64,000 nt of DNA from Isoetes taiwanensis (lineage: Eukaryota > Streptophyta > Lycopodiopsida > Isoetales > Isoetaceae): contig JAJEKV010000003.1 in NCBI GenBank assembly GCA_021234155.1, positions 21,853,569-21,917,568 on the forward strand, in the 5' to 3' direction. Below are positions 4,487 through 64,000 of this stretch, piece after piece; positions within the stretch are counted from its first letter, which is position 1; each line of letters begins with the position of its first letter. Both the position numbers and the translations under genes were made by a program. The notes beneath the pieces are model-generated. The model did not search any database, was not told the origin of the DNA, and worked only from the letters and a program-made list of their open reading frames with translations.

Positions 4487-6580
4487 CATTTAATGAAGCC
4501 TTGAGTTTGTTATGAACTAGTTGAAAGCAAAGGTTTCTTTTCTAAAACAGAGAACTTATAGACATAACCGGCAGTGTTCCACAAATGCTTGAAGAATGTA
4601 ATCCATTCTGAGCTTCGCTTTACCCATCTCCATTGCAGATATAAGTTAATAGCGTCTCCTAGGGGAATCCTCTGGACCAAATAGTCTACGCAATGGAAAT
4701 CCGAATCAGGAAAATCATTAAATTATCAGAGTTGTGCCTTGCTATATGCTTCAATTTCTTACACATTATATAAGATGAAAACACAAAGATATAAGCGCCC
4801 AAAACGATATAAATTGCAGCAAAGGGCAGTTTCCCATAAGTCCAAAATCTCCAGGTTTTCTTGAGGTCAGAGGACGACCTCAATGCCAAACAAGCACCAT
4901 TCCCATGCACATCTGAGTTCCCATGGACATCTGTTTTTTGGCTTCTTGGTACGGAATTGGAATTGGCAGCAAAAGAAGCGTCTGCACACAAGAAGACAAA
5001 ATTTGTCTCACAAGAAGACAAAGAAATGGCAAGACATTCCTTGAATTTCATGTTCCAAACCTGACTCCTCCAAGTTCAGCCGTCCATGTGAACTCCCAGT
5101 GTTTCTATCTGACCTCCAGGAAACCTTGAGGTTTCATGCCCATGGGAAACCGCCCTAAAGGTTAGCTATCAGTAGTGCAATAATTTCTCAAAGGACCAGC
5201 ATATCAGGATACACATGCAAGTCTTAGTAAATGGCCATATAGAGTCTGGTTGCAATGGTGCAAAGGTGTCAATCCAGGACATATCTACGAGATGTCTTGG
5301 ACTCTAGAAGGAAAATGAGCACAGTAATATCATAAACACAACAGAGCAGTTCAGACATAAATAGCAACAACAGGTCCCACATTAGATCGTAACTCAATCT
5401 GACAACACAAACCTGCTTTTCAAAAGACATTTACAAACCCTAGGCTTGATGCACTTTTTCAATTGACATCCAACAAGCAAGGTTGCTTTCTGAAACAAAA
5501 TTAAAAATTGCAACTGCTGATGGACTTCAATGCTCTATGACCTCTTCTGTCAATACGGTATCTTAGGATATAAGTTAAAGAGATCGGGACCATATGTGAA
5601 TTGCCGACAAGTAGAAGAATATGCTCTGATATGGTGGCATATCAAAGTATGGGATGTCCTTGCATCCCATTTGTAACCAAAGTGAAGGAACCTATCAGAC
5701 CACCATGTGGAGAAGATGATTCTCTTACACCAAATAGGAGGTACGCAGTTCCTTGATCTGCTGATTACTCCAAAGGTAGAAGACCTCTAGTTCCCTGGTG
5801 AAATACAAGAGTTCTACAATCTAGCTGAAGTCTGAAATGATTATACTTGGCATTTGAAAGTGCATATTAGAAAAGCTCTGATTCCATAAACATAAAAATT
5901 TACTATGAAGTAACAAAGATTCATTATGTATGCTGTTCTTGACTTGTTAGATTCAACAGCTGCAGTAAGGCACATAAAAAAAAAAAGATTGGAGAATTGA
6001 ACCCCAGCCTCCAAAAGACATATTTTTTCTCATTCTAGGAAGTCAATAAATTTCCCTTCAAAGAAAATTTAGCTGTTTAAAATGAAACTTTCAAGTTCTA
6101 GATCGACCTATATGAGCAATCAAGTCTCCAACAGGATTCTTGAAATGATTTCATGAAATGATTTGACACACCAAAACTTACATATCAAACTGTACTGCCC
6201 AGGTTATGAGAGATCAAACAGAATATTTGACTAAGAATTCTAGAAAAGAAGGAGGTTCTTATTTGCCACAGTTGGTAGTCAGAGACACAAAGAGTATGCA
6301 ATCTTATTTCTGAATATTCCTTGAGCTGGAAACACAGCCAGTAAACCAATAGCACAGCCTAATATCATTCATGATCTTAATTCATTGAAACAAGCCTGAC
6401 TTCCATAAGCAGCAAGCATCTTGCCTTCCTGAAGATCATTAATGGACTGAATCTTTATTTGTTTATCATAGAACTCCAACTAATTCATGAGAATTGCTTC
6501 TTATCTGCCCAGAATTCATCAAACATATGATCTTGAACCCCAAGAATTCAACCCAACTCAGCAAACCTGCTTCCATGTAA
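4487..6580. other. Intergenic, no recognised gene
   Basis: An open frame at 4686-5051 (-) begins MKFKECLAISLSS and contains a hydrophobic stretch (AAIYIVLGAYIFVFSSYIM), so it could encode a small membrane protein. I find no family match or splice support. At 5989-6005 the minus strand has a T-arm-like 17-mer (TGGGG loop CTCCA) next to a T-run, possibly a degraded tRNA-derived SINE. Nothing else is recognisable. Confidence 0.4.
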
Positions 6581-6744
6581 CAAGAATGTTCCTTTTGGAA
6601 GCATTTTGGGCATGTCAACATGCCTCAGCGTTGCCACGTGTTAGCATGTTCCCATACCAGTGCTTCAAAGGAACAGACATGTATGCTTCCAGAAGGAACA
6701 GGCATGTTGACATGCCCAGAAAGCTTTCTGAAGGAACATTCTTG
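6581..6744. repeat. Foldback: 45-bp inverted arms with a 74-bp loop
   Basis: Arm 6581-6625 is the reverse complement of 6700-6744 at 40 of 45 positions. The outer 14 and inner 15 bases of the arms match perfectly, and the five mismatches are confined to the middle. The loop contains further GGAACA/CATG motifs related to the arms. It could be a small foldback/MITE-like element or a young miRNA-type hairpin. There is no evidence of expression. It lies about 270 bp beyond the stop of the PKS gene. Confidence 0.75.
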
Positions 6745-7011
6745 TATACTGGAATCGCTTGCCAGCTCAATTCCTCCATGCAGATGCGATCTAGCTCTAA
6801 ATTTGCCCATCTCCAACCGTTAACCAAAAAATAAAAAACCTCAGCCAAAAAGACAACCTACCTACAGATTTTTGACAAAAAAACAAAAATCGCAACCGAC
6901 GGGCTGAATCCATCATTGGGCAACCTATTGTAAAGATTGAGAGCGAAAAGTTAGTCACAAATTCAAAACTTTTCATCAAATTGCAAAAGGTCGAGAGGAT
7001 GCATGCATTGT

Positions 7012-8355
7012 CTAGGCAGCAATGGGCAAAGCCTTCAACACAACAATCTCAACAGTGAGGCCAGGTCCGAAAGTGAGGAGGAAACCATAGTCACAGCCTT
7101 CACCAGTGGAGGAGGACTTCATGCGGATGGATCGGGTCCGCATATGGTCGAGGACAAACATGACAGAGACAGAAGACATGTTACCAGTATCACCCAACAT
7201 CTGGAAACTGGCGTCAAGCTTCTCCTTCCTAAGGCCAAGGGCAGCGCCCATTTGGTGAAGAATGAGGGGTCCACCGGGATGGACTACCCAAAACATTTCG
7301 TTCACATCGGGGGATCCAACAGCCTGCATTCCTCTCTCCAAAACCTGGGCAATGCTTTTGGCGATAATAGAGGGCACCTCTCTCTTCAGTCTAAACACCA
7401 GGCCAGCTTCTCGCAGAATACCCTCTATCGCTCCGTCGCTGTCTGGAAGCACTGTATTTCCAGCCCAGGCTAGCTCATACAGTGCCTTTTCATTTTCCTC
7501 AGGATCAGCTCCAACAATCACTGCTGCAGAACCGTCTGCGAAGAGCGCAGATCCAACCAGCCCGTCAAAATGCGCCTCGGATGGGGCCTCAAATGTGGAG
7601 GCGGTACTTTCTGTGCATACAACCAGGACTCTAGCTCCCTTGTTATTCTCAGCCAGATCCTTTGCGAGCCTCAGCACCGTGCCTCCTCCAAAGCAGCCCA
7701 GGTTGTAGAGCATAAGCCTCTTCACCTGATCATACAAAACAGAACATATCTAACGTCAAAAAAACTCTAGGTATTCGAGGAATGATAATACAATGCAGTT
7801 GTAGTCGGGACTTCACGTCAGAATTTAGCCCGAGTAGCTTCACAATCTTGTAGTCTGCTCCAGGCATGTCTACTCCGCTTATTGTTGTCACCACTACATG
7901 GGTAATCTTAGATCTGTCCTTCCCCCATTCTGTAATTGCCTTCTCTGCAGCAGATGCTCCTAGCTCCGGAATTGCATCCACCATTATATCTAGCCTTGCA
8001 TTCAGAGACGGAGCTCCATAGGTTGTTATGCCCGGGTTTGCTTTCAAGATCTCCTTCGTCATCAGATGATGCCGCCTATTCACTTCAGATTTCTCACCTG
8101 ATCATACAAAACAGAACATATCCAATCAAAAAAACTCTAGGTATTCAAGGAATGATAATACAATGCAGTTGTAGTCTGGGACTACTTACAGATGCGAGCA
8201 AATTTCCTCCTGAGATCCACTTTGTCGTTCATGTTGCAGGCATCGAACAAAAACTCTGCGTAATCCGTCTGCTCAACGAAGAACGGGGGATTATCCGTAG
8301 CTATTGCAAACACACAAGCGGGACCGCTGGGCTTCTCTACTTTGAATGCTGCCAT
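7012..8355 (-). CDS. Type III polyketide synthase (chalcone-synthase superfamily), 3 exons
   Basis: The product is predicted at 386 residues (family usually 385-400). It should condense a CoA starter with malonyl-CoA units in the cytosol. Exons: 8355-8190, 8097-7817, 7725-7012; reading phase is kept across both GT-AG introns. The first intron splits a cysteine codon (ARI|C-EKS), the conserved CHS intron site. The catalytic triad is Cys160 ([11 protein letters not shown]), His298 (VVHPGGP) and Asn331 (GNMSS), equivalent to alfalfa CHS2 C164/H303/N336. Gatekeeper phenylalanines are present (F211, F260). Differences from chalcone synthase by alignment from memory: Ile128 at CHS Thr132, Ser at Val196, and TFGPG instead of GFGPG near the C-terminus, so product specificity is uncertain. 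The start [13 protein letters not shown] gives the usual N-terminal length. A second, extra intron interrupts LNSD|VKRLML. Confidence 0.9.
7726..7816 (-). other. PKS intron 2 (91 bp), near-copy of intron 1
   Basis: The donor is GTGAAG and the acceptor GATCAG. Excluding about 12 bases at the donor end, it differs from intron 1 by two substitutions and one 2-base gap over roughly 80 bases. It sits between Asp149 and Val150, in phase 0, where the paralogue at 27.5 kb is uninterrupted. GTGAAG occurs both at the intron start and at the start of the following exon. Confidence 0.85.
8098..8189 (-). other. PKS intron 1 (92 bp, conserved CHS site)
   Basis: The donor GTAAGT follows the T of the split Cys56 codon and the acceptor is GATCAG. 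Sequence is nearly identical to intron 2 of the same gene and to the single intron of the pseudogene copy at 27751-27840. Confidence 0.9.
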
Positions 8356-9570
8356 AGCCGAATGGTTCCGTTCCCTTTGCTGCTTTGCTAAGGATGAAGA
8401 TACAGTTCTGTCTGTTTAAGGAGTTTAGGGGCCGGCCCTTTTTTCCGAGCTTTTCCAACCTAGCTCGCGGTCGGCAGCTTCCGACCCACGGTCTTCCTTG
8501 CTGCCATATCTGTCGCCATATCTGCGTCATATGGACTTTTAATCCAAAAGATCCTCTACTTCCTCAAAACCTAGCTATCATATCATTTACTAGTCATTAA
8601 CTCTGGAACATCTGACCCAATTGAACATGTAGTCTTATTATAGTTTTGAATTGGGTTCTTTTGATTTGAATTATACACGTTTTATTTGAGTCGCTTCAAC
8701 GTGAGGATTAGTATCTTATAAGATCTACTATACAAAAACGTGTGTATTCCGAGCCATTAATTCCTTCCCTTTTTCTTATTTCGTATCCAACAGGTAACAG
8801 GTGGATGCAAATTTCCTTCACAAGTATGTCAATTATAATAAATTGAGGTCCCACTGCTGAGTGTTTGGGCCTCTGTTTCCACCAAAAGCTGAAGAGTCGA
8901 AGCCAACAATCGACACCAACAAACTGGTCGACCTGCTTCTTTTGCAAATAGCAACAAACAAGTCAGCCTCTGTTTCTAGAATTCAATCAACAAGAGGATT
9001 CTTTTCTTTTTACAAGTATTATGGGTTTTGTTTTTAAGGTTGAATATCAACCATTGATCCTCGGCATATCCCGAGCATCATACCAAATCAATGGCTAATA
9101 TTTTTTTCCCAGAAAAAATACTTTGCCACTTTCTAAGGTCGATTTCAAGCATTCAAACATTTAACTTCACCATCCATTAAATTTGAAACCTTTACACAAT
9201 GCAAGACCACAGACGGAAAAAAAAGGGGGCTGCTTCATCCAGAATAAACAAGGGTGTCTAAGGACTGTCAGAATAAACAGGGCCAGCTATAGATTGCTCT
9301 TCTTAATCGGGCCGGATGGACATAAAGAAACGGCCAGGGCTTAATCCTGTGTTTTGCAGGCTTGCATCGACCCTCCAGACATCTATTCAAGGCTGATTAC
9401 TTTGCCATAGATCCAGCGCAAGCAGCTCTTTAATCCGAGCACCTGCCAAATTCAATCTCCAGCAGCATGCCAATATAAATCCAGGCTGCTTTGCATTCGC
9501 ATAATATAGAAAGAGAGATCAGATGGAATGAGACAGATCATCTAATGAGGACCCAAGCTACGATTCGAGG
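8356..9570. other. PKS upstream region and intergenic DNA
   Basis: The first about 75 bases upstream of the PKS start (to about 8430) are conserved with the pseudogene copy and probably include the 5' UTR and core promoter. I do not see a clear TATA box. Beyond this no gene or strong repeat is recognisable. Confidence 0.4.
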
Positions 9571-9589
9571 CTAAACACCTGCAATATTG

Positions 9590-9925
9590 AAGCTGCCTAT
9601 AGCCATGGCCATGGCTGGAGCAATCGAAATACGAAACAGCCATGACTGGAGCAATCGAAACACGAAACGGCCATGGAGGAATAGCTCATGTTCCTGATTT
9701 TCAACACTTAACATAAAACAAAACAACCATAGCTTTAGCGGAGCTCTAAAACAGAAGCACAGCAGCAGCAGACAAGGAGCCCACATGCGCTTATGCTTGG
9801 CAAACCGGATCGCAGAACAACCATAGCTCCACCGGAGCTCTAAAATAGAGCCACTGCTCCATCGGAGCCCTAGCAGCAGCAGACAAAGAGCCACATGGGC
9901 TTTTGCTTGACAAATCGGATTTTGT
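9590..9925. repeat. Degenerate tandem duplications
   Basis: Two direct copies of about 35 bp (GGAGCAATCGAAAYACGAAA) lie at about 9615-9675. Two degenerate copies of about 95 bp follow at about 9724-9820 and 9821-9920; both start AACCATAGCT and contain CGGAGCTCTAAAA, a CAGCAGCAG run and a GCTTGNCAAANCGGAT end. The long minus-strand open frame here is a by-product of the repeat. Confidence 0.6.
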
Positions 9926-10738
9926 GGGAACCCTGCCCTCTCTCAACCGTTGCCGCCCTTGTCGAAAAAAGAAAGCGGCGTGCGTTCTTATCTATGCCCT
10001 AAGAAAACGGCCCTTATCATTGCAAACAAAATACATTCTAAAAACCTATAAAAAGGAAACATGACCACTAAATGCAAATAAGCTGCTCAAATCGCTCAAA
10101 ATATACGATTTCTAATACAATACCGGCTAAAGCCACAAGCACCTCCCGCGATACAAAACTCAAACTTTGGAAGTTTATAAAGATGGATTTACTGTTTGTA
10201 TTCTTCTATTCTTTAAAGATTTCTGTATAACATCTCAAATAGCCTTTAAGTCGTATTTAATTAAAGTGAGACTCATTCCATTCCCACTTTTTTTCAGAAC
10301 CCTGTTATTTTACACAAAAAGGAGCACCCGGACCCGAAAACTGTCCTTAATTCGAATTTTTGTCTGTTAGTGTGCATCCAAGCTTTCTTCTAGTTTTCTC
10401 CGATGGCGAGTCGAGAACAAGAACAATGCAACTCAAACATAGAAACCAAAGTTCTAGTTGAAAAAGATTCTTAGTTGAACATTTTGGCTCTATTTTCTTA
10501 GGTGGGTAGACAAGAGATCACAAGTTCCAACAAAAATTAAGCAAATTGTTTACTTAATCACCAAAAAATACTAGTTTTGAGATACCTTATATTTATAAAT
10601 GGGCTCATTACAATATATATTACAGTGGGTGAAGAGACCATAGCGGTCGTATGGGAAAAATGATTACACCCTCTTCACACATGAACCACCTAGTGCAAAG
10701 GGCGCGTGGAGCTCTCTCCAAGTCACGGAGCAACTTAC

Positions 10739-10885
10739 AGACGATAGAAATTTGTATGAGGAGTTCCTTCATGGGCCACATGCTTGTATGCCCAACTGAT
10801 GTCACCACCCTCTTCTCGGCACCTTTCTTCAATGAACTGGTCTTTTCGTTGCTGCCAAGCATGTACTATTTGGTCGAGATAAGGA
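10739..10885 (-). pseudogene. Isolated exon resembling part of a ParB-type transposon gene
   Basis: A 147-base segment is bounded by a good acceptor (TTTTGCAG) and donor (GTAAGT) and encodes PYLDQIVHAWQQRKDQFIEE followed by a charged stretch ending HTNFYR. It resembles the exon at about 17535 (-), which starts PYVEQLRHARQQWIEYG after a similar acceptor. I infer a fragment of a related element. No other exon of it was found nearby. Confidence is limited by the short match. Confidence 0.35.
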
Positions 10886-10986
10886 CTGCAAAAGACAAAA
10901 TCAAGTTAGTCAAGTGATGCTACAGGGAAAAAAAAAAAAATAAAATACAGTTCTTAGGGCCATTTTTGGAAAATACAGGCCTGAGA

Positions 10987-11254
10987 GCCTTTCTCGACTC
11001 GCGAGTCGAGAAAGGCAGCTCAAAGCGAAAAACGCAGGTTTTAGGGGCCAGAAAGTGAAAAACGCAGGTTTTAGGGGTCAGAAGGCCTTTTTTTCCCCTG
11101 TTTTTTAACTAGAAAAAAAAAAGTTTTTTGAGGGTTTTTCTCAACTCGCGAGTCGAGAAAGACCCTAAGGCCCCTCTAATGGCCTTTCTCGACTCGCGAG
11201 TCGAGAAAGGCAGCTTAGAATGAGAAACGCAAGTCTAAGAGCCTTTCTCGACTC
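10987..11254. repeat. Cluster of perfect CTCGACTCGCGAGTCGAG palindromes
   Basis: Two identical 30-bp perfect palindromes lie at 10987-11016 and 11182-11211. A diverged copy lies at about 11136-11162 and a half copy at about 11241-11256. The core is CTCGACTCGCGAGTCGAG. Between them GAAAAACGCAGGTTTTAGGG occurs twice in tandem. A related imperfect palindrome is at 13219-13242 and a half-site near 10407. Confidence 0.85.
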
Positions 11255-11400
11255 AAAATCTAAACCAATCTAAACCTATGCATTAAACCTATGAAAGTTA
11301 TACATTAAAAATATGTGCATTAAACCTATGAGAGCCTATTAGACCTATGCATTAAATCTATTAATATGCATTAGACCTATTAATATGTACTTGTCCCCAT
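11255..11400. repeat. ATGCATTAAACCTAT short tandem repeats
   Basis: Variants of GCATTAAACCTAT and GCATTAGACCTATTAATAT recur in tandem. This is low-complexity satellite-like DNA without a gene. Confidence 0.6.
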
Positions 11401-11604
11401 TTTGTGTCTTAAACCTTCAAAATGGGTTAAACAAGGTGTAAAATATATCGCGATCTTCGTAAAGTTAAATTTTTACTTTAGAATAAGAATATATGCCTAG
11501 AAAACGTGCACCATGGCAACATAATGTTTAACGTATGGACATAGTAGCACACACATAAAAAGAGAAATTGGGATACGTCAAAATATAATCCTATATTATT
11601 AGTA

Positions 11605-11862
11605 TTTATTTTACACTTTCTTTTTCAACGTATTATTTTACCCCCTTTTTTCTAATACCCCGCCTTTTTTTTCCCATGCTTGAATTTTAAAATTTGGTAC
11701 ATACCCTTTTTTTCTAATACCCCGCCTTTTTTTCCCCCATGCTTGAATTTTAAAATTTGATACATACACTTTCTTTTTTAACGTATTATTTCACCCCCTT
11801 TTTTCTAATACCCCGCCTTTTTTCCCGCCCATGCTTGAATTTTAAAATTTGGTACATACCTT
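11605..11862. repeat. Three-unit tandem repeat, about 65-95 bp
   Basis: The block CTAATACCCCGCC(T)n-CCCATGCTTGAATTTTAAAATTTGRTACATAC occurs three times. Two of the units also include CTTTCTTTTTYAACGTATTATTT; the middle unit lacks it. Confidence 0.8.
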
Positions 11863-12462
11863 TGAGATGAAGATCCTTTGTACCATTGGACTCCTTGTTT
11901 CCGGAAGAAGCTCCATAGCCATAGCTCCCACCGGAATTGACCCGCAACCAAAAGCTTCACAGCTTTACAGCCACAGGCCCGATTTTCGTTGATTCAATCC
12001 TTCATAGGCTTTTAAATTCTCTGCGAAGCACTTTCTACCTGCCACAAGACCGATTTGCATAAAAAAACCGCATCCTGGCTTGCTCGTTCTTCTGAAAAAA
12101 TCTATTTCGGCTTGGCCGATTTGCCTTGCTCTGGTCGACACATCTCATGGGTCTTTTACTGAGCCCAAGCTTTTCTTTCTTATCACATCCTCTCACTGTT
12201 AATCGGCACCGACCTTGGTGCAAGAAATAAAATGGTGTACCTGGGAACCTTCTGCTTGAGGAAGCCATGTGGAAATAGTCAGGCTACAACGCCAAAGCTT
12301 GAGCTCCTAAAGCTTTGGAGCATTGGGACAGTTACCGGAGCTGGGGGCATTTACAAATGAATAACTTCTGTTTTCCATGCGTTGCTTTCCCCTGTTTCGA
12401 GCCTCTTGAACCTCTTGGTCCGACTGGTGCCATTGTTGGTGGAGCAGATGGCCCTTCACCAG

Positions 12463-12560
12463 CGCCTTCCTCAAGATAAGCCTCGGATCAAGCCTTCCTC
12501 AAGATAAGCCTCGGATGCGCCTTCCTCAAGATAAGCCTCGGATAAGCCTTCCTCTGTTCC
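12463..12560. repeat. 25-bp tandem repeat, three copies
   Basis: GCCTTCCTCAAGATAAGCCT followed by CGGAT is repeated three times with 2-4 bp spacers, and a truncated fourth copy follows. Confidence 0.8.
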
Positions 12561-13017
12561 TTGTTATATTCTTAGCGTTTTGGGTGGGCATGATCGTCAA
12601 CAGCAGCTTCGGCTTCAACAAAGGAAACCCTCGCAGGTGCTTTTCAAAGCATTTTTCAGTTTCATTGAGCAGTAAAATAACGAAATGAGGATGTTATTGC
12701 AGAGTCTTTGTGCGTAACTGGCCTTGGTAAAGCTTGGAATTTCTGCTTATGAAGCTTCTTCTGGCTACCTCTTGCTAGTGCCCAAATCTCGATCATCTGG
12801 CTCCATATCTGTTCTAGTCTTAGAATTAGAATTTGTGGACCCAAGATACCAACTGGGATGCCGTGTTTTTGCTCCGGCAAGAAGCCCAAGAAGCTGTACT
12901 CTGGCTATGGCTATGGCGATGTCACTTCCACTTTGCTAAATACACCTGCAGCTGTTTCTTCTGTTTGTTTTGTTTACCTACTTCTTCCATCCGGCTACTA
13001 CCCACTTCTTAGAGTCC

Positions 13018-13165
13018 TCTTAGAGTCCTCTGTTTCTCAGCACCATGACCCTCCATTTGTGTGGATTTGAAGACGAAAAGAGAACTTTGAAGACGAAAAG
13101 AGAACCTCTGTTTCTCAGCACTACGACCCTCCATTTGGGCGGATTTGAAGACGAAAAGAGAAGCC
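13018..13165. repeat. Tandem duplication, about 78 bp
   Basis: Two copies begin CCTCTGTTTCTCAGCAC and end GGATTTGAAGACGAAAAGAG. The first copy has an extra internal TTTGAAGACGAAAAGAGAAC. Confidence 0.75.
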
Positions 13166-13369
13166 ATCGTCATAGCCAAAAGCTTGGCTATTATTGTGAA
13201 GAGAAGGTTGCCTTATGGCTTCTCGACTAGTGAGTCGAGAAGGTTGAGAATACTCGTATTTAATTTAGTAATAATTTATTTATTTATTTTTATAATATTT
13301 AAATTTTATTTTTAATATGAGATTTAATTTCTCTTTAATTTATAATATTTAATTTTCATTTATTTTTTG

Positions 13370-13690
13370 AAGGGGAGATCTCTCCCCCTCCAAACTCTCT
13401 TTGCCCCTTTCATCCTTGTCCCTAACCCTCCCCCCTTTGCCCAGCCTCCCTCCATCATCTCCTTCCCCCCACTTTTGCCCCTTTGCCCCTTTCCCTAAAC
13501 CCCTCTCCTCTCTCTCTCTGCTTCTCTCCCTCCTCTCCCCCTCCCCTCCCTCTCCTATCTCTCCCCGCCTCCTCCCTCTCCCCCGCTCCTTTTTGTTCCC
13601 TCCCTTCGTCCCTCCCTCCCTCCCTTCCATCTCCCCTTCCTTCCTACCATTCTTTCTCCATCGTCTCCCCTTCTTTTCTCGGTTTGTTGT
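13370..13690. repeat. Polypyrimidine (C/T) tract
   Basis: About 300 bases are almost purely C and T on the plus strand with CTCCC and CTCTCT blocks. The overlapping open frames on both strands here (Ser/Pro/Leu-rich on plus, Arg/Gly/Glu-rich on minus) are compositional artefacts. Confidence 0.8.
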
Positions 13691-14443
13691 TTGTAAATGT
13701 TATTGTTGTTTGTAAATTTCTATTCAAGCAATCAATTCAGAAATTTTTTTTCTGGGGTATGAGTTTCATTTTCAGTCCGAGTGATTTGTCCCACTTTAAT
13801 TAAATACGACTTCTTTCTTAGGTCTTAGAAATTTTAATGGTGATTCCATCTAAGCTTCCAAACCAGCAGAGATTGATGTCTCGAGATGGCTCCTCCCTAT
13901 TTGCAGGTTTCCTCATAGTGGAAAAAATGGGCATCTTCTTCTATCAAAGGCCCTGATCCCAATTTTTTCTGCCCTCTTTGCATTATCTATCTCTGTACTG
14001 TTAAGAAGCATTGCCTATTGTAGTCTCGATGTGCTGTAATTAATTTGCTACACAAATTTTAAATAACATAATTTCGAGTGCAAACATTAATTCTTGAGAA
14101 CATCTTATTTGTCTTATCTTTCATTCTTGATAGCATATTTCATTCTGCCCCTTTGTTTTCTTGTAGTTATGTATCTCTTCGTTCCCTTTTATGCCATGTT
14201 CTAACTCATGCACCTGTAATTCTGTTAGTAACCCTATAGGTTGTTTAGCTTAAATTCATCTATTTCCTGTTTAATTAGGAATAGTAGTCGTTATAGATAT
14301 ATTGATGGTTGTTTGTGAACTATCTGCATTAAACTACAAATTTGGATTTTGGCAGAATCGGTCGGTAGGTCGGCAAGATATTCCCACCTAGGTTGGCCTT
14401 CTCCCACCTAGGTCGACAGGTCGGCTAGGTCGGCCCAACTATG
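13691..14443. other. Non-coding, nothing recognised
   Basis: No domain, repeat or RNA gene was recognised. A short GGTCGGC-rich stretch at 14360-14430 precedes the dispersed repeat at 14444. Confidence 0.4.
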
Positions 14444-14590
14444 AGGAGGACAGTATACTTAATGTTGGGCAAAATATGCCAACCTCCTATTCCGGCATTT
14501 TTATCAGATTATTAGGTTCAGGTCACATGGAAGCCTTAAATTTGAATACGACCCTAGTTTAACCATCATTCATTTAAATTGGATTTATGT
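14444..14590. repeat. Dispersed repeat 'X', continuous copy
   Basis: Bases 14444-14560 match 28077-28193 (AGGAGGAC ... CCTTAAATTTGAATACGACC). The next about 30 bases match 25441-25473 (CCATCATTCATTTAAATTGG). Here the two halves are contiguous; in the 25-28 kb region each half abuts one end of another repeat. This is therefore the uninterrupted form of X. Confidence 0.7.
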
Positions 14591-14818: not shown

Positions 14819-15458
14819 TCATGGAGGGACTAGTCCTTTCTTTGTCAAATAACTCTCAAGATAGGGATCCATATCCTTAGTCCGATCTAGTTCTGGATGC
14901 GTTTTGCCAACATCTGATACTGTTTTACCAGTAGCCAAGCCACTCATGATGGACATGAATAGTACTAGAAACTCATCTGTTGAGTAATCTTGTGGAGTAT
15001 AAGTTGGTAGATTTAGAGCCTGACCTTGATTATAAAAGCACTTAAGAGCATCATCATCTACTATTATGATGTCCTCTTTCTTTTGAATGCCAAGCTGATC
15101 CATCATAGTACCAAGATGTTTGACGAAGACCGGTTTGCCATCCGGGTCTCTTGGATGTGGAAACTTTATGCACTTAGTTTGGTCCCAAATCGTCACAGTG
15201 TCTCGATTCATGCCTGGTAACACCCTAAGTACTTCATCAACATTTCTGCGTTCCATTGAGGACCAGATGGCAACTCGAAACAATCTGAACGCCTCATTCA
15301 TCATATCTTCTAAGTGTGGACGAGGATAGATCCACTTAGTATTCGATTCTAGAGGGACTTGCTCGAAGTCATCCCTGTTAATAAGCTTCTTAGGAAACGT
15401 TTTACACAGGACACCATTCAGATCGAAGACAATGATTTTGTCATAAGCAGTTGGAGCC
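14819..15458 (-). pseudogene. FCP1/NLI-interacting-factor-like HAD phosphatase exon
   Basis: This is the terminal exon of the gene above. The HAD motif I region reads IIVFDLNGVL, motif II VAIWSSMERR, and motif III KKEDIIIVDDDALKCFY, the order and spacing of the FCP1/NIF family that dephosphorylates the RNA polymerase II CTD or similar targets. The second aspartate of the DxDx(T/V) motif is Asn (DLNGV), so phosphatase activity is doubtful. The C-terminal tail after the NLPTYTPQDYSTDEFL segment is short and ends in LTKKGLVPP. The exon itself is open and undamaged. A NIF-like fold is well supported; activity is not. Confidence 0.75.
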
Positions 15459-15548
15459 CTGAACCATGGAAAATAAAGAGTTAGCCATGCAAAAGTAGTT
15501 TGCAATACAGGCCAAGCGCGTTTTGTCCTTCATAAATAAGCTGCATAT

Positions 15549-22454: not shown

Positions 22455-24841
22455 GTGAATGGTGTGGACCACCCAAAGGGTGTTGAGGTTGAGTCTACTA
22501 AGCAAATTATCCTCTATAGTAGGTTAGATTGGAAGAATAAGAAGGTGAAAGTGAAGCACCAATGCAATAAGGAGCTAGTAGGTGAAGGAACTATCATACT
22601 AGCTGATCCTATCCAAGCTGTCAATGATGAAAGGTTAGGAGAGGATAAAGTGGGTGTGGCCATAACAAGTTTAGAAGAAAAATGGAAGGAAAAAGGGGCA
22701 AATGACCAGGATTGCACTGCTTATATTAAACAATTGGAGGTTCCATGCATCATGCCATGGCCTATAGCATGCATTGAGTTTATAGGAGAATTCCTTTTAT
22801 CAGAGCCAGAGGTTGTGGATGACACTGATTTTTTTAATGCACCTCCAATAGCTGCCAGGACCACATTTTCAGAGAAGAGGGCACACTCAGTGGTGAAACA
22901 TTATCCTAGCAAGAGGTCCAAGTCAAGTAGTGATTGTTCACGTGAAGCTCTGAGTAAGATAAGGGGAATGGAATGTTGTTGGGCTAATTGTGTTCAGAAG
23001 TTTGAAATTGATGAATTGGTGGAAGCAAGAGCCACCTTCCAAGAGTATACTTGTGATGAGAGGAGGACTTACATGTACTCCATTCATGAGCTTGCACTTC
23101 AAGATGAAAAATTTTCAAAGAAAAAAATATACCCACTGCTAGGGACATGGATATGTAAAGTTGCATGGATATATATTCATGGCATTCCAATTTCATCTTG
23201 GCAAAATTGGCAAGCAAGTCATGCAAAGGGGAGTAAAATTGCATTACATGTAAATAATGGCATGTTGAGGCCAACTTTTAGGATCCTGGCTGCTAGGGAG
23301 GTTTTTGAAAAATATGTTGAATTCAATGCTGCGAATATGCCCATAAAAGTAGAAAAGATCAACAGGGAAAAATAGTTGTCGAGAAGAGATTCCCATTATA
23401 CCCAGAAGAGCATATTGGAGGAAGTGAATGCTTTGCTTCGAGAACTACAGGTACTTGCAATATCTCAACCCAGCTTCAGTAGACTATGGAGCAAGCACTT
23501 CAAGCATGTCACTATAGACAGTTCGAACAACTTTGCAAAGTGCAACTTGTGTGCTAAGTTGAAAGAGATTCTGGATAAGACCAAGCAACCAAACCAAAGG
23601 GCTAAGATAAGGGAGCAAATGAAAGATCACATGACAGACCAACTATCATGTAGATCCACTTATTGGATGTGGAGAACATTATCATGTTTGGAATCCAATA
23701 ACTATGTTTGTATTATACATGACAAGATGGATCAATCAAGACTTGTTTGCCACAAAGATAGTTACATACCCAAGCAAATCAATAGAGCTTATCCTTTGCA
23801 AGTTTCTCTCGACAGTGCAATAGTGCATGGCTCGGTGCCAATTTATTATGGCCATTTTAGTTTGCAATTGTGGAGTGATGGTCCCGATTTTCATATTGGA
23901 AGTGTGATGAGGTGCTTGAGGAACTATGAGAGTGGTTATTCGGGTGACCTCCACAACCCCGAGGTAGTAGCCAACCACTCTTGATTGCATTGTTGGATAG
24001 AAAGCCTAATAATTTAGAGAAGTTTACTAAGGCAAGGTTTAGGACGTCAAGTGCTTCTGAACATGTTGGAGCCTCAAGTTCACGTCCCCAACCTCGAGAT
24101 CTACCACCAAGGTTCCTCCTCCAACTTGACAATTGTGCTGGACAGAATAAAAACAGGTATATGTTCTCATTCCTATCTTATTTAACAAAATTGTGGGTGT
24201 CTTTGAAAAGAGTGAATTTAGGGTTCTTAATGCCTGGACATACTCATGAGGATGTGGATGCATTGTTTGGGAAGTATAGTGCGCAGTTGAAATCTCAAAC
24301 TGTGACCAATCTTCCTAGACTAATGGAAGTTCTTAGTGAATGCATTTCACCTTCTCCTATAGGGTTGATCATACAAGAGGTGCCTGATTGGAAGAATTTT
24401 ATTGAAGGTTATGCTCTTGATATGGAAGGTCAATCTAGACCTCTTCAGTACACTTTCTGGGTCATGGAAAATAAGCCAATAATGCAATGGAAGATGAGAC
24501 CTTCAGATGATAAATGGAGGCCAGGTGAGGGAGTACCTATATGGCACGAAGATGAAAACGGTAAACTTAAGATTCCAAGGGGTCAACCAAAAGCTTTTAA
24601 GCCTTTTGCAGAGGTGGATTCATTGCAAAGCACATTGGACGGCATTTCTGAATACGTCAAGTATTGGAAAAATAACCCCGATGATACCAACCTTGCATTG
24701 ATAGATTTTAATGTATTTGTCGGCCTTATATCCCTAGTAAAAACTAAAATGCAATGTCTGGTGGTGCATACGACTCAAATGGAACCATCTGAAGCAGCGT
24801 TTCGCATTTACATTCATACTTTGAAACTATTATTTTGTTGA
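22455..24841 (+). pseudogene. DUF8039/DUF7869-type transposon protein, broken
   Basis: Coding probably begins after a TTCTTGTAG acceptor at 22452-22454. The N-terminal part has a DUF8039-like shape (KQIILYSRLDWKNKK, VKHQCNKELVGEGTIILADP, CIMPWPIACIEF). The C-terminal part has the hallmark LLQLDNCAGQNKNRYMF and MPGHTHEDVDALF, which in my memory mark DUF7869 proteins; the D...N and H..D.D pattern suggests an RNase-H-like nuclease fold. One in-frame TAG ends the first open segment at 23373-23375 and a frameshift occurs at about 23965-23984. The last residues (from FNVFVGLI, 24708) belong to another repeat that begins there, so the original C-terminus is lost. Confidence 0.6.
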
Positions 24842-27406: not shown

Positions 27407-28006
27407 TGCGACCCTCAACACCGTGCCTCCTGCAAAGCAGCCCAGTTGGTAGAGCATAAGCCTCTTCACATCAGGGCTTAGCCCAAGTCGCTTCACAATC
27501 TTGTAGTCCGCACCAGGCAGGTCTAGTCCGCTTATTGTTGTTACCACTACATGGGTAATCTTAGATCTGTCCTTCCCCCATTCTGTAATTGCCTTCTCTG
27601 CAGCAGATGCTCCTAGCTCTGGAATCGCATCCACCATTATGTTTAGCCTTGCATTCAGAGACGGAGCTCCATAGGTTGTTATATCCGGGTTTGCTTTCAA
27701 GATCTCCTTCGTCATCAGATAATGCCGCCTATTAACTTCAGATTTCTCACCTGATCATACAAAACACAACATATCTAACGTCAAAAAAACTCTAGGAATT
27801 CAAGGAATGATAATACAATGCAGTTGTAGTAGGGACTTACAGATGCGAGCAAATTTCCTCTTGAGATCTACTTTATCGTTCATGTTACAGGCATCGAACA
27901 AAAACTATGCGTAATCCGTCTGCTCAACGAAGAAGGGGGGATTATCCCTACCAATAGCAAACACACAAGCGGGACCGCTGGGCTTCTCTACTTTGAATGC
28001 TGCCAT
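27407..28006 (-). pseudogene. Type III PKS pseudogene, 5' half only
   Basis: This is a paralogue of the PKS at 7.0-8.4 kb. Exon 1 (28006-27841, also 166 bases) has Glu34 changed to TAG (27907-27905). The intron 27840-27751 is at the conserved cysteine codon. Exon 2 runs without interruption through [12 protein letters not shown] and [13 protein letters not shown] to about 27407, where homology stops; the histidine- and asparagine-bearing C-terminal half is missing. Upstream homology to the intact gene continues to about 28079, where repeat X begins. Its LGCFAGG is closer to canonical CHS than the intact copy's LGCFGGG. It acts as an unoccupied-site control for intron 2 of the intact gene. Confidence 0.9.
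27751..27840 (-). other. Single intron of the PKS pseudogene (90 bp)
   Basis: GTAAGT donor, GATCAG acceptor. It shares TAACGTCAA with intron 2 and ATTCAAGG with intron 1 of the intact gene, so all three introns form one very close family. Confidence 0.85.
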
Positions 28007-28076: not shown

Positions 28077-28195
28077 TAAGGAGGACGGTTTAGTTAATGT
28101 TAGGCAAAAAAATGCCAGCCTCTATTTCGGCATTTTTGATCAGATTATTAGGTTCAAGTCACATGGAAGCCTTAAATTTGAATACGACCCAGTCT
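28077..28195 (+). repeat. Left half of repeat 'X'
   Basis: AGGAGGACGGTTTAGTTAAT through GAATACGACCCA matches 14444-14562. It starts where PKS upstream homology ends and stops where the inverted copy of repeat Y begins. Confidence 0.7.
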
Positions 28196-28196
28196 T

Positions 28197-28983
28197 TTTT
28201 ATGGCAATTTCCCTTTCAATTTGAAGAGCAAATTTTTGGAATAGGTAATTTTTGCCCGACAGAAAGTTTCGTGGCGAAAGCCCTAGCGAGCGGCTGGGCG
28301 GTTGAGGCCTAGTCGAAAATGGCTAGAGAAATTAAGAAGTATGGTCTTCTGCAAGAGGACATACTTAGATGTTTTACATACCAATCAGTCCAATCCCATT
28401 TGAATCAGACATTATTCAAAATTCAAACTTCATATGAAATATAACCATCTATTAGAATTTTAATCTCATTGTTTGCACTACATGCGGAAGCTAAATTGTG
28501 AAGGATATTTCCTATCTCACTTTAACATTAACATCTTTATTGTCTTTATAGCATTTGACATCATTATCGGCCTTTAAAACATTTGACATCATTGTATATG
28601 ATCTATATGATTTGTCAAAGCTAGATCAAGAGAGCTATACACCAAGATCTTGAGCTATAGTCCACCAACATGGGTTAAGGGAATTAGTCCCAATGTTTAG
28701 GGGCTTCAGTTTGAAGGTTCAATCTCGTATGTGGTATTTGGCCCCCATTGCTTGTTATTATGACTTTAGTACAATGTTCATTTAGTAGCAAGTCGTGATC
28801 ATAAGAAGTTTAAACATGAATCTGAAGAAATTGCTTGAGCTGACTCAACAAAATAATAGTTTCAAAGTATAATGTAAATGCAAAACGCCGCTTCAAATGG
28901 TGCCATTTGAATCGTATGCACCATCAGACATTGTATTTTAGCTTTTACTAGGGATAATAAGGCCGACAAATACATTAAAGTTG
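28197..28983 (-). repeat. Repeat 'Y', inverted copy
   Basis: This is the reverse complement of 24705-25430 with scattered substitutions and an inserted stretch at about 28670-28740. Its right edge cuts the DUF7869-type coding sequence exactly after SNNHKYSQPNN, where the other copy (26217) continues uninterrupted. Confidence 0.75.
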
Positions 28984-29430
28984 TTGGGTTGAGAATACTT
29001 GTGGTTGTTGGAAGATGCAGACCTTTCCCATAATTCATGCTGTAGACCTGATAAATTGATAGTCTTATAGTGGTATGATATAAACTGCCTTAGTATAAAG
29101 AAGCCATCTACAGTTACCAAGGTGCAAAGGCAACTACACTGCCAGTACAATTGCAAAGGCATGACCAACTTGCCAAACATGGTAACAAATGTGGCATTGT
29201 CTGGCTTTTTTCTTTTCGTGGACAAACCTGAAAATCTCTGTTTGTGACCATCGAACACGTGCACTCAAATATAGCAGTAAAACGTTTTCCAAGCCTTAAA
29301 ATTGCAAAGGCAATAGAATATGCTACCAATAGACGTGGTTTGAAATGTACACTTGTTAATGGAACTGCTTGAATCACGCTAATCGGCATTTTGCATGGAT
29401 TTATTGGGTACATATCCATGTGGTAAACCT
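28984..29430 (-). pseudogene. Fragment of a DUF7869-type transposon gene, interrupted
   Basis: Bases 28983-29145 duplicate 26217-26385. The minus-strand reading LQHELWERSASSNNHKYSQP runs directly into FNVFVGLI of repeat Y, a junction of two unrelated codings. Beyond 29145 the open frames (for example MDMYPINPCKMPISVIQAVP) are not recognisable. Confidence 0.45.
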
Positions 29431-59842: not shown

Positions 59843-61009
59843 TTATAAGCCTAAGCTTCGAGAGACCAAGAGACGCTCTTCAAGGCTAGGAATAATGTAG
59901 CGAATGCGAGAAGACTCCGAACGCCATCGCCCATGGGAACGTATATTGTCCGCAGAAACTGAGGCCGATGAAGCTGTAGATGCACCTCCACGTCGTGCAC
60001 AATGAGTACCATACAGACGAGGATCAAGTCCCAGCATGTTCAAACACTCATACCACCATTTTCTGGCTAAAGAATAAGAAAGAGGACGAAGAGAATCAAG
60101 AGAAGAACGAAAGAGAGGGCCACCAGATTGAGGATCGGATATTCGAAAAGCACAAGAGCAAAGAAGGCGTTGAAGCAGATGGACTGGGCAGAAAGGGGTA
60201 AGCGTGCGAGCAATCAAAACCTCCATACCTGCACTTTGCTGGTCACATTTGGATTTGCGAATAAATACAGAAGCGTGAGTAGGAAAGAAAGATAAGTCAT
60301 GCCAATTTAAATGCAAAGCCTCAGAGATTCGTAAAAAACCCACAAAACATAACGAGATTAAAGAAGCCTTCATGAGGCTCAGCCAATCAGCAGAGGAGGA
60401 AGCCAGAAGAACCATCAAACGCCGCACATGGTTAGATGTCAAAGGAAGGCGGTTATGTGAAGAGTCGGTAACACGTGGAGCAGCTTGACGGACCAGAGTA
60501 GGGAGTGATGCTGAACAAGGTGAAGGCAAACCTGCAAGGTTATGGAAAAATGAAATAGAAGCAGAAGCAACAGAGACTGATGAAGCAGACTGATGAGAGC
60601 TCATCAAAGTAGCCAAGAAAGAGGCCACGTGGCCAGGCTTAGCGGGAAGTGGAGGAATGTTAAAGTTGGAACACCAACGGCGAAAACGTCCCCAAGCTGA
60701 AGCATAGCGGTTCAAAGTTGAGGATGCGCGTGATTGAAAAATAGATGAGAATAAGGGAAGCAACATCGCCACTGGTAGGTCTGCAAAATACCACAAGATA
60801 TCTGGGAAAAATCGAATAGAATGAATTAGAAAGATATAAACTAAGAGCCGGATAGAGCAAATAAAAAGGCCATATATTGAATCATGTAGAAAAATCACAA
60901 CGAAGTGCAAAAAGAGCAACATGTCTGCGAACTCCCACAATCGAAGAAGAAGAAGAAATTGCAGTAGATGATAGCACCTGAGAATTTTCAGGAAAAAACC
61001 GAGAATCAA
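59843..61009 (-). CDS. Tyrosine recombinase of the DIRS-like element
   Basis: The recombinase joins the circular DNA form of the element to a target. The open frame has 388 codons, of which the recombinase proper begins near residue 95 (SSTLNRYASAWGRF, the core-binding domain). Catalytic residues are all present: Arg227 (GFLRISEAL), Lys254 (RKSKCD), His336-x-x-Arg339 (GTHCARRGGASTA), His359 and Trp362 (HGRW) and Tyr371 (RIRYI). The first about 90 codons overlap the RNase H frame and are probably not part of the mature protein. No stop interrupts the domain, so this is the best-preserved gene of the element. Confidence 0.9.
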   Translation of the reverse strand: MILGFFLKILRCYHLLQFLLLLRLWEFADMLLFLHFVVIFLHDSIYGLFICSIRLLVYIFLIHSIRFFPDILWYFADLPVAMLLPLFSSIFQSRASSTLNRYASAWGRFRRWCSNFNIPPLPAKPGHVASFLATLMSSHQSASSVSVASASISFFHNLAGLPSPCSASLPTLVRQAAPRVTDSSHNRLPLTSNHVRRLMVLLASSSADWLSLMKASLISLCFVGFLRISEALHLNWHDLSFFPTHASVFIRKSKCDQQSAGMEVLIARTLTPFCPVHLLQRLLCSCAFRISDPQSGGPLFRSSLDSLRPLSYSLARKWWYECLNMLGLDPRLYGTHCARRGGASTASSASVSADNIRSHGRWRSESSRIRYIIPSLEERLLVSRSLGL

Positions 61010-62882
61010 TTACAAAAGGTTGCCAATGCGAGGGGCTAAGGCAGATCAAAGGCCACCAAGGAGCGGATGGCCGTGAGAAGACAACGAGCGTAAGGCGCGC
61101 TTTGCAAGAACGTGCATGATTAAGAACCTCAGGAATCAAAGATGGAGGAGGGAAGCAATAATTATTGAACAAATGCCAATTGTACGAAAAAGCATCTGGA
61201 AGAATACGGAAAGGGAAAGAGTCCTTGGTATTGAATACTGCAAGCTTTGCATTAGTTGGGGAAGCAAACCGGTCAACATGGTGTGGGCCCCAAAGAAGCT
61301 CAAGTTGATGGAAAGCAGCCATGGATAAAGAAAATTCGTCAAAATCTCTAATCTTAGAAAGATAGTCAGCCCATTCGTTTTCATGTCTAGGAACCCAAAT
61401 TGGCTCAAGCATGATGCGGTGTTGAAAACAGAAGATAAAAAGTTCCAGAGATAGTAAATGAAGGAGAGGGGCTTTTGATCCCCCTTTGTGAAGAATGAAT
61501 GAGACGTTTTGGTTATCCCCGCGTGCTAGCACAGTAGTGTTGTAGATGGCAGAGCCGCAACACTTGAGGACCTGAAACAAAGCAAACAACTCTCTCCATG
61601 TAGAAGATTGGGAAGACTCAATCTCAGTGAACTACCCTGCAAAGGAAACATCATTTGAACCAGGAACTCTTAGCCAGCCCCCCCAACCTTTATCACTTGC
61701 ATCAAACCCAATAGTACGTTTTATAGAAATAGGCGGCCATAGAGGGGAATGGTCAAAGCGAGAAATGACAAGTTTCTAAAAGCTCAATTCATGACGGGAA
61801 AAAACAGAAAGCTCAAAAGGGACATCCCAAAGATCAGCGGAGCGTAAATCTAAATGAAGCGCAAAGGATAGACCAGCGCAAAGAAGACCAAATACTAAGC
61901 GTAAGGATTGAATAAAGCCAAGGAAGCGAGCAAGAAGCCGGCCAGTAACCAAAGGGGCATTCAACAAGGAGGATGCTAGATGTAACAATCTGTCTCTCTT
62001 GGCCATAGAGATACGAAAAAGACCTTCTTGGGTATCAATGACAAAGCCCAGAAATAAGCTATGAGCAATGCGAAGGCGGCATTTCTTCCAAGCAATCAAG
62101 AATCCTGCATGTTGAAGATGAGAAATAATGCGCAATTGAAGAATCTCAGGGGAAGCTTGGCTCATGAACAAAAGGTCATCAACATAAGGAAGACATCGAA
62201 TGCCTTGAGCACGCCAAAATCTAACTAGTTGCCTGATAACTTTGGTGAAGACAAAAGGAGCAGTGGCCAAACCAAATGGGAGCATATTGAAATTATAGAA
62301 GCAACCTTCGAACTCGAAGCCCAGAAAGGTACGATGTGGAGGCCAAATTGGAATGTGATGATATCCAGATTTCAAGTCCAGGGCGAAGAGAAAGTCATTC
62401 GGTTGGCAGATGTGGGATAAAAGACCAAGATTCTCATAACGAAAAGCAGGAATAACAAGTAAAGAGTTCAAGAAACGTAGATCAAGGATAAGGTGGAACT
62501 TCTTTTCAGCTTTAGGAACCACACCAAGAGGAGAGTAGAAAAAAGGGGGTGAGGGAACGCAAGAAGCTGCACCAGAGCGTAGAAGGTCCAAAATTGCAGA
62601 GCGAGCAAAGTCAGTATGCGAATGTAGGGAAGGATGATTAGGGCGACAAAAAGGGAAAGAAGGTTGGAGATCAATCCAAGGCAAGCGATAACCAAATTGG
62701 ATCCAATTTATAACTTGTTGTGATGATGAAATAGATTGCCAAAATGGTAAAGCATCATGTAAGCGGTTAAAAACAAGAGTAGACGACGCCACCTCGTCGG
62801 AAGTCAGAGGATCAATACCCAAGTGAGGGATAAAAGAAGAATAAGGAGAACAATCTGAAAAGAAGTTTAATAATAAAGTCAA
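60882..62882 (-). pseudogene. Reverse transcriptase-RNase H of the DIRS-like element, two stops
   Basis: The RT begins near 62882. Key motifs, by residue: 122-140 VPKAEKKFHLILDLRFLN; 168-176 LDLKSGYHH; 201-214 LPFGLATAPFVFTK; 233-236 YVDD, the polymerase active site. The same frame continues into RNase H with FDASDKGWGGWL (first catalytic Asp), RGDNQNVSFIL, and WVPRHENEWADYLSKI, then the DIRS-typical tail WGPHHVDRFASPTNAK. Two in-frame TAG codons, at 61778-61776 and about 61635, break the frame between RT and RNase H. Motifs otherwise look intact, so inactivation is recent. Confidence 0.9.
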
Positions 62883-62989
62883 AAGATGAAAATATAACTA
62901 TAAAAGCCGATTTTTATATAAAAATAATCAAGAAGATACAAAACACTTATGTATGCCTCGAAGGCTCAAAAAGATAACACACCCTTTCC

Positions 62990-63014
62990 TTTTTTTTTTT
63001 TTTTTTTTTTTTTT
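62990..63014. repeat. T25 homopolymer between gag and RT
   Basis: A run of about 25 T on the plus strand (A on the element's sense strand). It is directly followed by a short degenerate duplication: AGAAGAGACTAAGCGTGAGA (63015) and AGAAGAGATTCAAGCGTGAG (63063). Confidence 0.8.
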
Positions 63015-63022
63015 AGAAGAGA

Positions 63023-64000
63023 CTAAGCGTGAGAACGCGACATAATTTTAAACAAAAAATCTAGAAGAGATTCAAGCGTGAGGACGCGGCATAAAATTGG
63101 GGGGAGGCAATGGAGGTAACTGTGTGGGTGGAAGAGGTGGCAAAGGAGGAGGCATAAGAGGGACAGTACAGGAGCTCCAGCTGCCATACGAGCAAAACAA
63201 GATTCAATTCGATGATTAGGGCGCCCACAAAAAGTACAACCAAGACGATTAGTAGCACGATTTGGTGGTGCAGTCTTCAAAGGGGCAAAAGGTAAGGCAG
63301 AAGCTATTTGAAGATGACTGGGAAAGACGAGGAGCTAAAGCAGGCTTGCGTTGACGAGCCATTTTGAGACGGCGGGCTTCGTCAACTGAAAGAGAAGGAA
63401 AAGAATGGTCATCGAAATCGAAGGCAATCTCATAGCCTTTGCAATCCGCCACAATCAAAAACTTCATACGTTGACGAGTTGATGTTTTACCTTCCTCAAC
63501 AATCCGTAATACGGCTTCAGGCACAGGAGGATGAAGAGCTGACAAACGAGTATGAAGTTCTCGAAAGCGGTCCTCCGTTGAGCAAAGAAAGTCATACTGA
63601 TGTTTGGTAGAGTCTCGTTTGAAAGATGGTGCAGAACGAGACGTCCGCTCACGAACTTCCACTCTAAGAGCTTCAATCTGCTCGTTAACATTTGAATTAC
63701 CAGATAGAGAAGTTTGTAAAGCTTGGATTTGGGCAGATTGAAGCTGAAGGGCTTGAAGGAGTTGGTTAGTGACATCCGAAGAGGAACCACTAGGAATAGT
63801 AGTATTAAGGCCAAACGAAGGAAGAACCGAAGACATGGTAGGCAGAGGACCTTGTGAAGAAGAAGGAACAGCTTGTGTAGTTGAAGGAAAAGATGGAAAG
63901 AATGCGGAGCCAGGAGGAGGTGGAAAAGATGGATTAGGTCGCGCAGAATTGTTCTCAGGAGGAAAAGAGTCAGAGGTACGAGGCCTCCTTGCCAGTGGTG
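63023..64000 (-). pseudogene. Gag of the DIRS-like element, partial and frameshifted
   Basis: The frame is open from the window edge through a Pro/Ser-rich N-terminus (NPSFPPPPGSAFFPSFPSTT), a Gln/Leu coiled-coil-like stretch (NQLLQALQLQSAQIQALQTS) and a basic part, to 63249. A frame change at about 63300 leads into CTFCGRPNHRIESC, a canonical CCHC zinc knuckle (C-x2-C-x4-H-x4-C), with the end near 63023. Gag coats the RNA genome of the element. The start lies at or before the edge; a possible internal start is at 63836. Confidence 0.8.

Follow-up and report, generated by a model that had tools for sequence, protein, structure and literature searches.

Introduction

How new introns originate has long been an open question, and the source is known for only a few gains. 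Among the closest described systems, 14 unambiguous intron transpositions have been listed for Mycosphaerella and Oikopleura (PMC3443670), and in the potato RdRp gene a new intron is reported to have arisen by tandem duplication across an intron-exon boundary (PMC4974935); the latter is the nearest plant case that we found. Gains in Drosophila are described as having weak splice sites and, in some cases, direct repeats that overlap them (PMC2809761), gains in Daphnia carry direct repeats that are internal in most of 90 introns (PMC4202315), and for both organisms the reports describe stops that arise when the new introns are retained. Here we describe an intron in a 64,000-nt stretch of the Isoetes taiwanensis genome (the window, to whose positions all coordinates refer), where a chalcone-synthase-type gene on the minus strand carries two near-identical introns, the second of which (intron 2, 91 bp) is absent from the gene's truncated sister, which lies on the same strand.

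Members of this gene family with more than one intron have been described previously. Extra introns in the long exon are reported for Alpinia (a predicted one) and Antirrhinum, and two- or three-intron genes for Physcomitrella and Polygonum (PMC3036070); the passages of that paper that deal with these introns make no mention of a similarity to intron 1. Among the open-licence papers listed in searches on intron gain and on chalcone-synthase-family introns we recognised no report of this gene or of a within-gene copy of a lycophyte nuclear intron, and the main text of the genome paper (PMC8566536) does not contain the word "intron". As read from the genomic sequence, intron 2 appears to be a genuine gain that is well resolved: its source is known, and its joins point to copying at the level of DNA.

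Two homologous introns in one gene

The gene begins with exon 1 (8190-8355, with the ATG at 8355), followed by intron 1 (8098-8189; 92 bp), which belongs to the donor family of intron 2, then exon 2 (7817-8097; 281 nt), intron 2 (7726-7816; 91 bp) and exon 3 with the stop codon (7012-7725); the exons were placed by frame and translation, and intron 2 by its alignment to intron 1 and a count of possible splice choices. Excision of exactly these two introns leaves a single intact frame of 1161 nt, or 386 codons, whose product matches both CHS/STS domains in Pfam (PF00195, 2.6e-87; PF02797, 2.4e-49) and finds its best matches among solved structures in chalcone synthases. With both domains and an unbroken frame, the gene is predicted to encode a type III polyketide synthase of the chalcone-synthase type. 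Intron 1 lies at the same conserved Cys codon in the gene, in the sister and in 18 of 19 paralogs tried, these 19 being part of the 29 loci fetched besides the gene, with the extraction pattern failing for L020.

Introns 1 and 2 are 94.3% identical over 88 columns (BLASTN, E 1.6e-33), far beyond chance. Their coordinates and near-identity had been put forward in the original prediction for this stretch, and the alignment bears both out. Past the 5' end the two introns differ, as had been listed there, by two substitutions and one 2-base gap; a further 1-base gap near the 5' end had been overlooked. The same prediction placed the copy 281 coding bases downstream in the same gene, which is the length of exon 2.

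The 91-bp sequence of intron 2 was searched against the whole assembly (1,658,258,908 bases in 1110 contigs) and matched three places only, all of them in the window: intron 1, intron 2 itself and positions 27838-27751. This third copy, which had escaped the earlier reading, lies 20 kb away, where it forms intron 1 of the truncated sister. The source of intron 2 is thereby identified as the intron-1 lineage, at 94-95% identity. The search did miss the related introns of the paralogs L008 and L009, such that diverged copies may escape it. At 122 bp, intron 1 of L008/L009 is longer than the introns of the gene; by eye, it seems to hold an internal partial repeat of the segment around TTAGAGTTTTT, which would account for the extra length.

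The sister's empty site and the derived state of intron 2

The sister gene retains exon 1 (27841-28006), in which an in-frame TAG stands at codon 34, a 90-bp intron 1 (27751-27840) and an exon 2 (27407-27750) that runs unbroken through the site of intron 2; homology ends at 27407, at about codon 170. Where intron 2 would lie, the sister reads continuously as CTGATGTGAAGAGGCTT, with a single GTGAAG (27464-27469), and thus preserves the empty target site. Between the two genes, a frame with a DUF7869 domain (PF25273) lies at 23981-24841, and sequence similar to the end of that frame recurs, by eye, at about 28880-29000, upstream of the sister.

Searching the assembly at the protein level yielded 128 matches, and the loci of the best 30 were fetched. 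In 35 of the 38 best matches (E up to 1.3e-60), the sister included, the intron-2 site is crossed without a break. The tally was made by eye from these 38 matches, and in no case does the DNA exceed the length required by the residues by 91 nt or more. The remaining matches comprise the gene's own exon 3, a frameshifted locus with abutting pieces and a fragment that starts past the site. In a tree of 14 sequences, to which the sister contributes 510 of 1155 columns, the gene and its sister pair with 100% support, and L008 and L009 are nearest by distance. Because the sister and the paralogs examined lack it, intron 2 is derived, and a single gain in this gene alone is by far the simplest history within this assembly.

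Which version of intron 1 was copied

Among 18 extracted paralog introns, only those of L008 and L009 align to the gene's introns beyond stretches of 9-11 bases, and these two were used to polarise the changes. The present intron 1 carries two to four derived changes, namely an extra AGT, an extra A, the loss of CG and an A to G substitution, the first two lying close together and likewise the last two. The sister intron carries three, one of them less certain. Intron 2 has, apart from its 5' end, one derived substitution and none of the derived changes of intron 1. By this polarity intron 2 is the best-preserved form of the ancestral intron-1 sequence, better preserved than intron 1 is now. 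A simple copy of today's intron 1 was considered and is ruled out by the lack of any shared derived change. Since intron 2 keeps the ancestral state, its copying would date from about when the gene duplicated, or else the template would have been a sister or allele that lacked those changes. The earlier proposal of a recent copy of intron 1 therefore holds as regards the derived state of intron 2 and its descent from the intron-1 lineage, and fails as regards the present-day intron 1 as its template.

Joins of the insert and a proposed copying route

At the insertion site the gene reads GAC-GTGAAG-TCCCG...ATCAG-GTGAAG-AGG, in comparison with GAT-GTGAAG-AGG in the sister. The insert thus consists of an upstream GTGAAG (7811-7816), which supplies the GT of the 5' splice site, and an 85-bp tract from the intron-1 lineage (7726-7810; TCCCG...ATCAG), which holds the AT-rich body and the 3' splice site; a downstream GTGAAG (7720-7725) begins exon 3. 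Because GTGAAG flanks the insert and is single in the sister, it constitutes a 6-bp target duplication. Both ends of the insertion show microhomology to the flanks of the donor tract: the last three bases of the upstream copy (AAG) match the GTAAG of the donor, and the first four of the downstream copy (GTGA) are those with which exon 2 opens behind it (GTGAGAAA). Microhomology of at least 3+4 bases to these flanks occurs at 3 of the 1149 tested positions of the spliced coding sequence, the site used being one of them, and GTGAAG makes up 3 of its 59 GT hexamers.

A short direct repeat together with microhomology at the joins is what break repair or template switching would leave. Reverse splicing would instead call for a 5' end of GTAAG and no target duplication; intron 2 begins with GTGAAG and is flanked by one. 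Taken together, the duplication, the microhomologies and the exon-derived 5' splice site make template switching or templated break repair a better account than reverse splicing. We consider it somewhat more probable than the alternatives combined that this gene, and no other, acquired intron 2 as a spliceosomal intron when most of an intron 1 was copied at the DNA level into its coding sequence.

From these joins we infer the following route. A growing or broken DNA end just past GTGAAG (codons 150-151) would have paired through AAG with the GTAAG of an ancestral intron 1, the template being intron 1 of the same gene, of the sister or of an allele. Copying would have proceeded through 85 bp to the end of the intron and on into GTGA, which would then have paired back at the original site, leaving GTGAAG on both sides. 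The copied tract would bring the body, the branch region and the 3' splice site, and the duplicated exon would provide a new, weak 5' splice site, so that removal of exactly 91 nt by the spliceosome would leave the protein unchanged. In RNA that retains intron 2, translation would run into a stop 28 codons further on, which could expose the transcript to nonsense-mediated decay. A more specific version is that intron 2 was born by a microhomology-guided template switch, of the kind attributed to polymerase theta or to microhomology-mediated break-induced replication, from the gene's own or its sister's intron; the duplication would have built the 5' splice site, and a cluster of substitutions around the site would be the trace of error-prone synthesis. 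We advance this version tentatively, at slightly less than even likelihood. Of the 17 clear gene-branch changes, 9 fall no more than 63 nt from nt 447 (p 0.011, for a span picked post hoc; mean distance, p 0.030), compared with 5 of 13 on the sister branch and 11 of 67 on the stem, and the clustering around the insertion is only a hint.

Splicing and selection

Around intron 2, 196 GT/GC-AG choices retain an open frame. Two of them retain the stretch ..DVKRLMLY..: the 91-nt choice and a 250-nt choice that loses 53 codons. The whole 386-aa family protein is kept by the 91-nt choice alone, and the other splice choices for intron 2 are rejected. We judge it likely that intron 2 is spliced, or was so at least until recently.

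The 386 codons hold no disabling mutation. On the gene branch, codons 1-170 accumulated 21 changes, of which 12 are synonymous and 9 nonsynonymous (ratio 0.23; p 0.0009-0.009 against neutrality); with doubtful sites dropped, 9 and 7 remain (ratio 0.24; p 0.005-0.026). The total of 21 has doubtful sites assigned, whereas the clear changes number 17 or 16, as a tie in the outgroup majority falls one way or the other. For codons 150-386 in comparison with L008 the ratio is likewise 0.23, with the older stem included. These figures suggest that the frame has been under purifying selection, with signs that are modest in strength, as the sister control discussed below makes plain.

Weighing the alternatives

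The points that weigh against an intron copied at the DNA level and still in use concern the 5' end of intron 2 and the condition of the gene around it. As to the former, precise transposition followed by one later G insertion would yield an identical 5' end. In such a classical transposition, intron 1 would have been reverse-spliced between GAC and GTGAAG into messenger RNA or DNA, reverse-transcribed and recombined into the gene, the later insertion turning GTAAGT into GTGAAGT. The copied tract does end exactly at the 3' splice site and starts, but for one G, at the 5' splice site, and homologous introns of this sort in fungi and a tunicate are labelled "intron transposition" (PMC3443670). 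The extra insertion would nonetheless have weakened the donor (U1 pairing from -5.7 to -2.0) and reproduced by chance the six exon bases that follow; the microhomologies at the two ends would be a coincidence, at 3 of 1149 positions; and recombination with a complementary DNA would presumably tend to erase intron 1, which lies 281 nt away and is retained. We therefore regard transposition of this kind as unlikely. Far less likely still is membership of intron 2 in a family of introner-like elements or transposons. Some Introner families are described as having a short direct repeat on either side, as intron 2 has, but the report in question states that no Introners were found in land plants (PMC9860276), and the three matching places in the assembly are all intron copies in the gene and its sister. 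The introner-like origin raised by the original prediction as an alternative finds no backing in the genome search with the 91-bp sequence; as far as that search reaches, diverged copies aside, a recent multi-copy family is rejected. An assembly artefact, with intron 1 duplicated in silico or intron 2 misassembled, could be imagined in an assembly built from Nanopore and Illumina reads with optical mapping (PMC8566536). Yet the two introns differ at several places, the target repeat is a biological signature, and the insert keeps the frame only when it is treated as an intron, all of which make an artefact the least credible of the explanations considered.

The condition of the gene bears on another explanation, in which the 91 bp are a recent templated insertion that is never spliced and the gene is a young pseudogene. 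The donor GAC|GTGAAG is weak: it pairs with U1 at -2.0 kcal/mol, where that of intron 1 reaches -7.0, and a pairing as good or better is found for 47% of the 6258 GTs in the window. The gene deviates at 38 of 300 positions that are invariant in 14 paralogs, whereas single paralogs deviate at 0-3 positions in a leave-one-out comparison, a figure that near-identical paralogs hold down. An insert of about 6 kb, some 75 bp before the ATG, splits the 5' leader from its former upstream sequence, so that the gene may not be expressed. Moreover, the broken sister has a selection ratio of 0.34 (8 synonymous, 9 nonsynonymous changes; 5 and 9, ratio 0.55, at clear sites), which does not differ significantly from that of the gene (Fisher p 0.30); it is on this account that the selection signal is called modest. 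Against a pseudogene stand the 386 codons without stop or frameshift, a gene branch with fewer nonsynonymous changes than neutrality predicts, and the exact restoration of both frame and family sequence when 91 nt are taken out. Intron 2 also shares no derived change with intron 1, so a late copy would need another template. For a gene that died at the insertion, the joint probability of seeing neither a disabling mutation nor a shared intron-1 change would at best be 0.00001 to 0.04 over the rates tried, a calculation that assumes a constant rate and this gene's intron 1 as template and that an allelic or lost third template would void. On balance, we consider a young pseudogene improbable, to a degree hardly different from that of classical transposition, and retain a spliced intron gained by DNA-level copying as the preferred reading.

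The upstream insert and neighbouring sequence

The insert upstream of the gene spans 8430-14446, with ends placed approximately. Beyond it lies the gene's original upstream sequence (14447-14554), which shares 90% identity with the first part of the region upstream of the sister (28082-28190). The gene-near ~470 bp of the insert and a separate 73-bp stretch match repeats elsewhere in the genome, and a comparison of the insert's two ends found no shared repeat of more than 6 bp. A deletion in the sister, instead of an insertion in the gene, is possible but less likely. A scan for bacterial-type promoters upstream of the gene found nothing, a type of scan that is not meaningful for a plant.

On the other side of the gene, about 260 bp or more behind its stop codon, an inverted repeat at 6571-6754 has 55-nt arms that are 84% complementary and 74 nt apart, and is possibly a small element resembling a miniature inverted-repeat transposable element. 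Farther upstream, a minus-strand frame at 14819-15505 encodes an NLI-interacting-factor-like phosphatase domain (PF03031), and minus-strand frames at 59843-63998 contain a reverse transcriptase domain (PF00078) along with a match, below the Pfam cut-off, to a phage-integrase-type recombinase. The latter frames look like a DIRS-like retroelement.

Comparison with known systems

At this locus the source, the empty target and the junctions are all legible, and the candidate mechanisms of gain can consequently be told apart. Should RNA confirm splicing, intron 2 would be a well-documented plant case of intron gain, and it would follow that an intron can seed another through ordinary error-prone repair, the target's own GT completing the new intron.

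Within its own family, the gene resembles those described in PMC3036070 in having more than the usual single intron; the Alpinia intron, as described there, lies in a fragment that matches nt 546-1101, downstream of the intron-2 site (nt 447/448). The gene shares with potato RdRp that it is a plant gene in which the 3' part of the new intron came from a neighbouring intron of the same gene and the 5' splice site was recruited from an exon. It differs in that only an intron tract was copied, over a distance of 281 coding bases, and a 6-bp target repeat flanks it (compare PMC4974935). In common with the transpositions of Mycosphaerella and Oikopleura, the new intron is homologous to an existing intron elsewhere; those cases are attributed to some form of intron transposition, classically by reverse splicing (PMC3443670), whereas here the 5' splice site of the donor was lost and direct repeats flank the insert. 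Introners, too, consist of copied intron sequence, with target repeats in some families (PMC9860276), but no multi-copy family is seen here. Short direct repeats are likewise a feature of the Daphnia and Drosophila introns whose gain is connected with double-strand breaks (PMC4202315, PMC2809761), from which intron 2 is set apart by its source, an intron of the same gene family. The case may be a hybrid between intron transposition and gain by break repair, with donor, empty site and joins all within one 20-kb stretch.
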